Positions 37,868 to 44,282 of a DNA stretch of 64,000 nucleotides are shown here, one piece after another. The notes beneath the pieces were generated by a model. That model was not told the DNA's origin, made no database searches, and worked only from the letters and a program-made list of their open reading frames with translations. Each line of letters begins with the position of its first letter. The first letter of the stretch is position 1. Source of the stretch: Oscillospiraceae bacterium (GTDB lineage Bacteria; Bacillota; Clostridia; Oscillospirales; CAG-272); assembly GCA_015064205.1 (NCBI GenBank), contig SVSR01000002.1:86567-150566 (forward strand), written 5' to 3'. The position numbers were made by a program, and so were the translations under genes.

Positions 37868-37896
37868 TTGAAATTTTTATATTCGTGTGCTATAAT
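37868..37896 (+). promoter_or_regulatory. Promoter of dnaA
   Basis: TTGAAA (37868-37873), 17-base spacer, TATAAT (37891-37896). Transcript start near 37903, leaving a ~107-base leader that contains the palindrome at 37943-37960. Confidence 0.7.
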
Positions 37897-37942
37897 GTTT
37901 GATAAGTATATATATTTATATATTATATATATTAGAGTTACG

Positions 37943-38009: not shown

Positions 38010-39374
38010 ATGGATCGCTTGGATGAAGTCTGGTCTTTGGTTTATGAAAAATTAAAGCAGGATATAAACGAAAGTACTTTCAAATTATGGTTTGAAGATC
38101 TCTCTCTTTGTGAGCTTGATGAAAAAAGAGCCGTTCTTTCGGCAAAAACGGTTTTCAAAAAAAGAATACTTCAGTCTTCATTTTTAGGTAAGCTTGAAGA
38201 TTATTTTGAAAAGACACTCGGATTTCGTGTCGAGATCGCTATAACAGCTCCCGGCGACACAAATGAAGCTGATACTTCTTCAAATGAGGTTACATCCGAT
38301 AATACACCTGTTGAAGAAAAAAAAGAAAGTATCGAACACGAAGAGATTTCATTCTTCTCATCAAATGCAGAATACACTTTTGAAAACTTCATTGTCGGCA
38401 ACTCAAACAAGCTTGCGCATGCCGCGTGTATTGCCGTTGCCAATAATACGGGCTACGATTATAACCCCCTTTTCATATACGGACCAAGCGGTCTTGGTAA
38501 AACACATCTTCTTCATGCTATAACAAATCATGCAAAAAAGAAAAATCCTAAAATAAATATCGTATACGTAACAAGCGAAGATTTCACAAATCAGCTTATA
38601 GAAAGTATTTCAAATAAAACCACAAAAGAATTCAGAAATAAGTTTCGAAAAGCCGATATGCTCATGATAGACGATATTCAGTTTATCGCATCAAGAGAGA
38701 ATACCCAGGAAGAAATATTTCACACGTTCAACGCGCTCTATGAAAACGGTATACAGATAATACTAACGTCCGACAGACCTGCAAGAGATATAAAGCATCT
38801 TGAAGACAGGCTGCGCACTAGATTTGACTGGGGCGTTACTGCAGACATAAATCCCCCCGATTTTGAACTTCGTGCCGCTATACTTTCAAGCAAAGCAAAG
38901 ACTCGCGGAATTGAACTTTCCTCAGATATAATAAATCTTCTTGCCGAAAATCTTACAAGCAATATAAGGCAGCTTGAGGGTGCTGTTAAAAAGCTTTGCG
39001 CAATAAAGCTTTTATCCGATAAAGAATTAACTCTTGAGGTTGCAAAACAGGCTATTTCCGATATTGTTAAAGATAAAGTTTCTGTTAACGTAACGATTGA
39101 CAAGATACTTGATGCAGTTTCAAAAAAATACGGTGTTACAACCGAAGAATTAAAAAGCAAATCCAAGGCAAGCAATATTGCAACACCCCGTCAGATCGCA
39201 ATGTACGTTTTAAGAAAAACGACAGATCTCTCACTTCCTAAAATAGGAAAGATATTCGACAGAAATTATTCAACGGTGATCCCGTCTATAAAAAAGATCG
39301 AAAACGAGATAAAATGCAATTCTCTTTTTGAAATTGACGTAAACGAACTCATAAAAGAAATTATGACTTTATAA
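38010..39374 (+). CDS. dnaA: Chromosomal replication initiator DnaA with altered recognition helix
   Basis: 454 residues. Domain I, an acidic linker (~80-115), then the AAA+ domain: Walker A GPSGLGKTHLLHA, Walker B MLMIDDIQFIA, sensor region RLRTRFDWG. Domain IV has QIAMYVLRKTTDLSLPKIGKIF, then residues 417-425 read DRNYSTVIP. The almost universal DnaA signature at this place is RDHTTV-x-HA or RDHSTV-x-HA, whose Asp and His contact bases of the DnaA box in the E. coli structure. Here they are Asn 419 and Tyr 420, and HA is Pro-Ser. The frame is intact, so this is a change of specificity rather than damage. Confidence 0.97.
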   Translation: MDRLDEVWSLVYEKLKQDINESTFKLWFEDLSLCELDEKRAVLSAKTVFKKRILQSSFLGKLEDYFEKTLGFRVEIAITAPGDTNEADTSSNEVTSDNTPVEEKKESIEHEEISFFSSNAEYTFENFIVGNSNKLAHAACIAVANNTGYDYNPLFIYGPSGLGKTHLLHAITNHAKKKNPKINIVYVTSEDFTNQLIESISNKTTKEFRNKFRKADMLMIDDIQFIASRENTQEEIFHTFNALYENGIQIILTSDRPARDIKHLEDRLRTRFDWGVTADINPPDFELRAAILSSKAKTRGIELSSDIINLLAENLTSNIRQLEGAVKKLCAIKLLSDKELTLEVAKQAISDIVKDKVSVNVTIDKILDAVSKKYGVTTEELKSKSKASNIATPRQIAMYVLRKTTDLSLPKIGKIFDRNYSTVIPSIKKIENEIKCNSLFEIDVNELIKEIMTL

Positions 39375-39644
39375 TTTTCAACATATGTTGATCATATATG
39401 TTGAAAACATATTTTTTATCTGTCACATACTTTTTGAATTATATGTTTGATTTTTTGTGGTTTTATTTAAAAAAAACAAGTTATTTTTATTACAACATAT
39501 ACTCCACAGCAAAATAAAATGGATAATATACGAAATATTGCCATATATTCAGGATTTTGAGTAGATCAAACATTTTCAACACCCCCTACTACTACTATTT
39601 ATTATTTTATTTTCTTTTTATAAATAAAAAAGGAGACTTTCAAA
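39375..39644. other. Candidate replication origin (oriC) between dnaA and dnaN
   Basis: 270 bases, very AT-rich. Three exact copies of the 9-mer TTTTCAACA: 39375-39383 (+), 39399-39407 (-) and 39573-39581 (+). The first two form an inverted repeat that could also be a dnaA terminator hairpin. The third borders a C run and a triplet array (next entry). The canonical TTATCCACA is absent; TACTCCACA near 39510 is a two-mismatch relative. Position between dnaA and dnaN, with leading-strand genes diverging around it, supports oriC. Confidence 0.7.
39573..39604 (+). other. Origin unwinding element: box, C run, DnaA-trio-like triplets
   Basis: TTTTCAACA (39573-39581), CCCC (39582-39585), then CTA CTA CTA CTA TTT ATT (39586-39603) leading into an AT tract. 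On the other strand, read 3' to 5', this is GAT four times then AAA, TAA. The first five fit the published DnaA-trio rule (G or A, then A, then T or A), and the array follows a GC-rich spacer next to a DnaA box, as in Bacillus oriC. Confidence 0.7.
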
Positions 39645-40784
39645 ATGAAGATCGTTTTTAAGAAAAATGTACTTATAGAGGCAGTAAGCTATGCTCTTTG
39701 CGCAGTATCAAATAAAAATATGGGAACTAGCGTTCAGGGTATTCTTATAGAAACTTTAGCTGATAATATATGCCGTCTTTCTTCCTATGACTATGATAAA
39801 GGACTTAATATAACGATAGAAGCAAACGTTATTGAAGAAGGAAACTGCATTATAAATGCACAAAGACTTAATCAAATAATAAGGATCTTACCCGAAAGTG
39901 AGATAGAAATATCACTCAGCGGAAATATTGCTTGTGTTAAAAGCGGAAAAAGCGAGTTTGAGGTTGCTTCTCAAAGAGGAGATGAATTTCCCTCTATGCC
40001 CGAGCTTGATACAGAATCGGGTTTTACAATAAAGCAGAAGGTGTTATTCAAGAGTATATCACAAACTCTCTTTGCTGTACCTCAGAATAATCAAAGACAG
40101 GTGTTTACGGGATCACTTTTTAAAATAGACGGAAGAAAGATGACCGTTGTCGGATGCGACGGATACCGTCTTGCAGTTAAAGAATCTCTCTGCGATATGA
40201 AAAATGCGCCTGAAAATATAAATCAGAGAGTAATAATACCGGGAAAAACACTTTCCGAGCTTATGAAGATAATCGGCGATAATGACGATGATATTACAAT
40301 CAAGGCTTCAAACAAGCATATTGTATTTGAAGTTAAAAAGAAAAATCTTTTATTCTTCTCAAGGCTTCTTGACGGAGAGTATATAGATTATGAAAGAATA
40401 CTTCCAAGGCATTTTGAAACTTTTGTTATTGCTGATAACGATATTTTGTTATCAGCTCTTGAAAGAGCTGCACTCGTTAGCGAAGAAAGCACATCAACGG
40501 GAACAAAGTCATATGTAAGACTGAGTATTAAACAGGATGATCTCGTTATTTCGTCTGTTTCAGCAAAGGGAAAGGTAAAGGACGAGCTTACTATTGAAAA
40601 AGAAGGTAAGGACATTGAAATACTTTTCAATTGCCGCTACCTTATAGATTCGCTCAAGGCTTGCGACAGTACTAAGGTTAAGATTTCTCTTGAATCACCT
40701 AAGATCGGTATAATAATTGAGCCTGAAGAAGCTAAGGAAAACGAAAAGCTTACAGTATTCGTTCTTCCTGTTATGATAAAATGA
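39645..40784 (+). CDS. dnaN: DNA polymerase III sliding clamp (beta subunit)
   Basis: 379 residues forming the three-fold clamp domain repeat; typical segments ILIETL, GDGYRLA and the C-terminal VFVLPVMIK. Tethers the polymerase to DNA. Good GGAGAC site before ATG 39645. Stop overlaps the recF start (ATGA). No yaaA (S4-domain) gene lies between dnaN and recF, unlike Bacillus. Confidence 0.97.
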   Translation: MKIVFKKNVLIEAVSYALCAVSNKNMGTSVQGILIETLADNICRLSSYDYDKGLNITIEANVIEEGNCIINAQRLNQIIRILPESEIEISLSGNIACVKSGKSEFEVASQRGDEFPSMPELDTESGFTIKQKVLFKSISQTLFAVPQNNQRQVFTGSLFKIDGRKMTVVGCDGYRLAVKESLCDMKNAPENINQRVIIPGKTLSELMKIIGDNDDDITIKASNKHIVFEVKKKNLLFFSRLLDGEYIDYERILPRHFETFVIADNDILLSALERAALVSEESTSTGTKSYVRLSIKQDDLVISSVSAKGKVKDELTIEKEGKDIEILFNCRYLIDSLKACDSTKVKISLESPKIGIIIEPEEAKENEKLTVFVLPVMIK

Positions 40785-44119: not shown

Positions 44120-44120
44120 G

Positions 44121-44239
44121 TTTTCAACAATGTTATTAATTATGTTGAAAACTCGGTTGAAAAGTGTTGTTTAAAAATAATTTTTATTATAAAATAACGC
44201 TTTACACGGTTGAAAAAATTATCTGCATCCTGTTGAAAA
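44121..44239. repeat. Cluster of TTTTCAACA-type 9-mers between gyrB and gyrA
   Basis: Three exact copies, at 44121-44129 (+), 44143-44151 (-) and 44231-44239 (-), plus two TTTTCAACC variants on the minus strand at 44155-44163 and 44208-44216. The first two form an inverted repeat just after the gyrB stop and could also act as its terminator. Same 9-mer as in the dnaA-dnaN gap. Confidence 0.6.
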
Positions 44240-44282
44240 ACAGAATTGCTTGTTTAAAAACTGACAGATCAGGAGAAAAGAT

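Follow-up and report, generated by a model that had tools for sequence, protein, structure and literature searches.

A DnaA initiator with an Asn-Tyr recognition helix beside an A6-box origin in an Oscillospiraceae bacterium

Introduction

Which boxes does a DnaA initiator use once the residues of its recognition helix that contact the DNA have been replaced? In the Proteobacteria and Actinobacteria studied in PMC5043019, the Asp-His dyad of this helix is reported to be highly conserved. The question is raised by a 64,000-nucleotide stretch of genomic DNA from an Oscillospiraceae bacterium (hereafter the window), in which the dyad is replaced and the boxes beside dnaA depart from the canonical form. 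A preliminary description of this DNA proposed that initiator and origin had co-evolved to a different specificity, making the origin orthogonal to ordinary DnaA. An open literature search found no paper on DnaA boxes or domain IV co-evolution in the order to which this bacterium belongs. We analysed the locus, its relatives across the order and the box content of their origins.

Results

The dnaA gene and its recognition helix

The dnaA gene of the window (38010-39374, + strand) encodes a protein of 454 amino acids, recognised from its open reading frame, from matches to PF00308 and PF08299 and from alignment to the solved DnaA structures 8btg and 1j1v. As in a DnaA initiator, domains I, III (AAA+) and IV all score above cut-off (PF11638, PF00308 and PF08299, respectively), domain IV with a match to the full profile (positions 1-69 of 69, 90 bits), and the gene adjoins dnaN (39645-40784, + strand, by open reading frame and Pfam) with the rnpA side upstream (dnaN and rnpA by Pfam). 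The GC skew in the window flips sign at 38-40 kb, as expected of an origin.

Residues 417-425 read DRNYSTVIP (codons 39258-39284, + strand), with Asn419 (AAT) and Tyr420 (TAT) at 39264-39269, exactly as the preliminary description had reported. The recognition helix of domain IV is RNYSTVIPS, compared with RDH[ST]T in most relatives, and alignment to 1J1V places Asn419, Tyr420 and Pro425 at the contact positions D433, H434 and H439 of E. coli domain IV. The equivalent of Arg399, which we take to be its residue number in 1J1V, is Lys386, and the same change is found in relatives with an RDH helix, e.g., P0003. Base-contact residues of domain IV, as listed in the relevant passages of PMC7561715 and PMC5043019, are therefore altered in this protein, a feature shared with Thermotoga-like orthogonal DnaA.

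Among the best 120 of 8000 scored proteins, RNYSTVIP is shared only by P0001 (95% identical) and P0002 (86%); P0003 (81% identical) has RDHSTAIS, and P0005-P0007 have RDYSTVIA. A quick tree that excluded domain IV, and in which long outgroup branches were flagged, groups the three RNYSTVIP proteins in one (starred) clade nested among RDHST and RDYST relatives. Origin DNA accompanying an RNY helix was read in the window alone (n=1).

Anatomy of the dnaA-dnaN gap

Three exact copies of TTTTCAACA, a box with adenine at position 6 (A6) in place of the canonical cytosine (C6), lie between dnaA and dnaN, in agreement with the preliminary description. The first (39375-39383, + strand) abuts the dnaA stop codon and forms an inverted pair with the second (39399-39407, - strand); the third lies at 39573-39581 (+ strand). 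This compares with 0.05 copies expected, and none of 2000 dinucleotide shuffles reached three. The canonical word TTWTCCACA is absent from the window, where TTWTNCACA has six matches, none with C at position 5. The assertion that the gap lacks a canonical box holds in this strict form, though a loose canonical-core site, TACTCCACA, is present at 39500-39508 (+ strand) as the sole TCCACA of the gap.

The third copy of TTTTCAACA is the trio-proximal box, with a BUS scan score of 19.6 compared with 12.8 for the best of 20 base shuffles. It is followed by a CCCCC spacer (39582-39586, + strand), in a layout like that described in PMC8287927, and by the DnaA-trios TAC TAC TAC TAT (TACTACTACTAT; 39587-39598, + strand), identified by sequence and BUS scan, from which A+T-rich DNA extends to dnaN. 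We read the region as a BUS origin because of this layout of box, short spacer and at least three trios (39573-39598), three trios being the minimum given for a BUS in PMC8287927. The distal position of the tandem pair (39564-39572, + strand) is occupied by GATCAAACA, a weak match in the BUS scan, unlike most relatives. Another word, ATGTTTGAT / ATCAAACAT, occurs three times around dnaA (37895-37903, 39443-39451 and 39565-39573, the last overlapping the distal BUS position) and is possibly a second site type.

The gyrB-gyrA gap and same-genus genomes

Three more copies of TTTTCAACA, beyond those listed in the preliminary description, are located between gyrB and gyrA. That at 44121-44129 (+ strand) is kept in the congener G003, whose gyrB-gyrA region is 83% identical to that of the window; that at 44143-44151 (- strand) is replaced in G003 by TTTTCCACA at the same site; and the counterpart of that at 44231-44239 (- strand) is disrupted in G003, with its last match lost. 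Within the genus, C6 and A6 boxes thus swap at a single position of the gyrB-gyrA gap, the G003 helix being outside the assembled sequence. Indeed, dnaA was not found in the same-genus assemblies G001, G002 and G003 (51-77% complete), probably as a result of incomplete assembly and not of gene loss; the G003 contig carrying gyrB-gyrA stops before dnaA.

Besides the three exact copies, the gyrB-gyrA gap of the window (44120-44282) contains the near-copies GGTTGAAAA and TGTTTAAAAA. The gap could be read in 38 rows (G003 twice, the window once), and C6 or A6 boxes are present in 10 of them, with both forms in L131, L132, L135 and L139; the gaps without boxes among the 38 rows are mostly short. 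Some relatives likewise have clustered boxes in this gap.

The inverted pairs just after dnaA and just after gyrB could suit a dimeric repressor, and the TTTTCAACA sites might then serve a DNA-binding protein other than DnaA. We regard this as highly improbable, given that the copy at 39573 stands at BUS box spacing ahead of the trios and that C6 and A6 forms occupy shared places in relatives.

Genome-wide counts

In the genome of the window, TTTTCAACA occurs 106 times compared with 24 for the reversed pattern, and TTWTCCACA 38 times compared with 46. We rejected the genome-wide excess of TTTTCAACA as a sign of DnaA use, since TTTTCAACA exceeds its reversed control in 80 of the 80 genomes of the order searched, canonical-helix ones included. 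The raw excess tells little because coding words contribute to it; the preliminary description had cautioned that TTTTCAACA also arises in coding DNA. In the intergenic DNA defined by our own open reading frame calls (about 41 kb in 444 kb of the 1.65 Mb genome), TTTTCAACA was found ten times, six of them in the dnaA-dnaN and gyrB-gyrA gaps, and TTTTCCACA once.

Two box forms across the order

We collected a first set of 210 dnaA loci (30 + 100 + 80), reduced to 188 by dropping 22 with a duplicate protein, and a second set of 90 (30 + 60), reduced to 74 by dropping 16 with an identical protein, giving 262 loci in total. The gap was set to 600 bases after dnaA wherever dnaN was not found. Boxes were counted by the definition TTNTNNACA, which boxes like GTTTCCACA (L071) escape, and looser definitions were counted separately.

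The 146 Asp-His origins of the first set contain 412 copies of the C6 box TTNTCCACA (7.1 expected) and 172 copies of the A6 box TTNTCAACA (13.2 expected), the latter a 13-fold enrichment second to that of TTNTCCACA. The G6 and T6 forms are not enriched in these origins (11 with 6.5 expected, and 4 with 5.3 expected, respectively). As only C6 and A6 are enriched beside Asp-His helices, the order has two box forms, and the earlier premise that C6 is normally fixed fails here. The two forms also share the trio-proximal position: where a BUS was called at an Asp-His locus (n=53), this box is A6 in 12 and C6 in 33. BUS calls passed in 77 of 186 gaps, with the caveat that in 36 of the 186 the highest-scoring of 20 base shuffles likewise attained 14.5, so that weak calls are unreliable. 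Relatives share the layout and spacing of the window, as in L052 (ATTTCCACA-GTTTGCACA-GCCCC-TACTACTAC).

Exceptions to a simple pairing of helix and box occur both ways. Nine Asp-His loci (L091, L111, L117, L184, L194, L199, L289, L299 and L303) have at least two [TA]TCAACA and no [TA]TCCACA, and five Asn loci (L056, L070, L082, L087 and L187) have at least two [TA]TCCACA and no [TA]TCAACA.

Helix residue and box position 6

The position of E. coli Asp433 is occupied in the 262 loci by Asp (214), Asn (26), His (17), Gln (3), Lys (1) and Ser (1). Loci in which TTNTCCACA or TTNTCAACA occurs at least once were called informative; 6 of the 26 Asn and 22 of the 214 Asp loci have neither and were dropped. 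By this definition TTNTCCACA is missing in 9 of 20 Asn loci, compared with 16 of the 192 loci with Asp (p=7e-5 by Fisher's test), and in 8 of 19 Asn loci once the window is excluded (p=3e-4); among His and Gln loci, those that lack it number 2 of 13 and 0 of 3, respectively. The association weakens with looser box words: with [TA]TCCACA / [TA]TCAACA in both flanks, C6 is missing in 6/22 Asn and 14/197 Asp loci (p=0.008), and with TCCACA / TCAACA in the dnaA-dnaN gap alone, in 6/23 and 17/195 (p=0.02). On an approximate FastTree tree of the AAA+ domain, nine independent Asp/Asn pairs, too few for significance, split into 3.6 that fit the expected direction, 0.1 that oppose it and 5.2 ties; FastTree trees of this domain also served for the other pair tests.

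The link between helix and box is a bias and not a rule. The co-variation put forward in the preliminary description stands in so far as Asn goes with the absence of TTNTCCACA, and falls short of significance in the independent pairs. We rejected a rule by which Asn419 would specify CAACA: the five Asn loci cited above keep C6 boxes only, so the box is not determined by Asn alone. Lys382, a hit of a column scan, was likewise rejected as a second determinant, since in the larger set the column contains many kinds of residue and independent pairs show nothing; the position that corresponds to Arg399 is 386 and not 382. Concerning Tyr420, RDY loci (n=8) have a mean A6 fraction of 0.51 and 0.55, compared with 0.31 and 0.32 in RDH loci (p=0.08 and 0.03), the corresponding pair test is not significant, and L280 (RHYSTVIS) has three TTNTCCACA despite its Tyr.

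These data bear on two alternative explanations. In the first, there is no functional link: A6 boxes would result from base-composition drift, the helix change would be tolerated drift, and the two would coincide in this lineage by chance. The A6-only origins beside Asp-His helices are consistent with such a coincidence, as are the non-significant pair test and the frequent variation of the helix positions across the order, which parsimony on the approximate tree puts at about 30 steps for 433 and 17 for 434. We nevertheless consider it unlikely, for the loss of C6 boxes goes with Asn and not with His or Gln, and the effect persists without the window and under two other box definitions.

The second alternative is the orthogonality of the preliminary description, whereby ordinary DnaA would not fire the window's origin, nor the window's DnaA ordinary origins. 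Two dyad residues are altered together within one clade, the window has no TTWTCCACA, all six exact boxes of the two gaps are A6, and Asn is associated with the absence of TTNTCCACA; moreover, orthogonality does occur in the Thermotoga domain IV, according to the account in PMC6669920. The box form is, however, not exclusive to non-ordinary DnaA, TTNTCAACA being enriched in the 146 Asp-His origins. Canonical-helix relatives with the same boxes, which the preliminary description itself had named as a refutation, were found many times. With both forms mixed in a congener and Asn loci with only C6 boxes in existence, orthogonality is not supported and appears quite unlikely to us.

Other helices with apparently rewritten boxes

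Several other helices of the order accompany unusual boxes. The dnaA flanks of L119 (RKHSTVKS) have four copies of TTTTCTACA and no TTNTCCACA, with T6 beside Lys at the Asp433 position. Those of L203 (KSHSTVHH) have six TTTCGA[AC]A and neither TTNTCCACA nor TTNTCAACA; a BUS pair, ATTTCGAAA-CTTTCGACA, precedes the trios of this locus. L029 (MHHSTVMS) has four copies of TTTTCCGCA, two of them in tandem ahead of the trios, and L311 (MHHSTVMT) has one, at the distal BUS position. The words of L119, L203 and L029 are each above all 1000 base shuffles, and judging from these sequences, the boxes look as if they had been rewritten along with the helix.

The loci L193, L195 and L200 (Ruminococcus bromii strain YE282) encode [KR]HYST helices and have no TTNTCCACA. 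Their flanks contain 4, 4 and 5 copies of [AT]TTAACA, i.e., 13 sites, all in three of the five HY loci, and the density of this word over the five HY loci is 2.7 per kb compared with 0.59 in Asp-His loci. The proximal BUS boxes of this group are CTTTTAACA and ATATTAACA. The word TT[ACGT]TACTA[AC], considered as a box for [KR]HYST, was rejected as not above shuffles.

One could imagine that in this order box position 6 is read, in a one-letter code, by the residue at the Asp433 position (C with Asp, His or Gln, A with Asn, and single loci suggesting T with Lys and G with Ser), and that the RNYST clade represents a recent, finished switch from D to N and from C to A, with an origin on which its own DnaA would be a markedly better initiator than an RDH DnaA. 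This combined proposal seems doubtful to us. In the five strong BUS calls with His at 433, the proximal box is A6 in four and the distal box C6 in four, counter to a one-letter reading.

Discussion

We propose the following reading of the window, in which an RNYST DnaA is paired with a BUS-like origin. Every exact box of this origin is TTTTCAACA, one of two forms also present in canonical-helix relatives, and the A6 form has likely become fixed in this lineage as the helix shed or altered its requirement for C6. We give this reading a probability of about 60%. In such an origin, DnaA would dock on the TTTTCAACA sites, and the molecules bound at 39573 would seed a filament onto the trios and open the A+T-rich stretch before dnaN. 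In the most economical history, the boxes would have drifted first and the helix would have followed, the Asp-His dyad being freed to become Asn-Tyr; we favour this order of events because A6 boxes already accompany Asp-His helices. In our chemical reading, Asp would be a natural acceptor for the amino group of cytosine, and Asn a classical partner of adenine. The Asn of the window's helix may not depend on C6, and adenine is probably tolerated or favoured there. Two predictions can be made: binding of the RNYST DnaA to TTTTCAACA should be no weaker than to TTATCCACA, and ordinary DnaA should still bind TTTTCAACA usefully, which would make the origin biased and not orthogonal.

The dyad has changed repeatedly in this order, beside origins where many of the boxes are legible at a constant position ahead of the trios. 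Such loci provide a natural series of helix-box pairs for testing the recognition code of DnaA and the way in which an essential initiator may change its site without cell death. Such a change could plausibly pass through a standing alphabet of two box forms, C6 and A6.

The closest counterpart of the origin in layout is the BUS of Bacillus subtilis oriC, which, as presented in PMC6669920, PMC8287927 and PMC10721633, has in common with the window its tandem box positions, a short G/C-rich spacer, DnaA-trios and a location in the dnaA-dnaN gap. It differs in that the consensus box of B. subtilis, also described as the most critical, is box #6 (PMC10721633), whereas in the window the trio-proximal box is the better match and the distal position is the weakly matching GATCAAACA.

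The A6 box itself is already known. The consensus of Mollicute DnaA boxes is given in PMC3322544 as TT(A/T)TC(C/A)ACA, both forms serving there, and TTTTCAACA is one of them; the three exact boxes near dnaA in the window fit this consensus, a match in form and not in kinship; Mollicutes are a different lineage, compared here through their boxes. In Epsilonproteobacteria, helix-5 residues and the box consensus (TTCAC core) have changed together and a rare C-to-A change at position 6 is tolerated, according to the corresponding sections of PMC5043019; the hallmark there is T at position 5, with the dyad kept, whereas in the window it is the dyad itself that differs, and the box position involved is 6. 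Finally, the DnaA of Thermotoga maritima, which uses a 12-bp box, has had contact residues of domain IV replaced, as in the window (PMC6669920, PMC7561715). The T. maritima box is reported in PMC6669920 not to be recognised by B. subtilis DnaA, whereas the box of the window is also present in origins that accompany a canonical helix.
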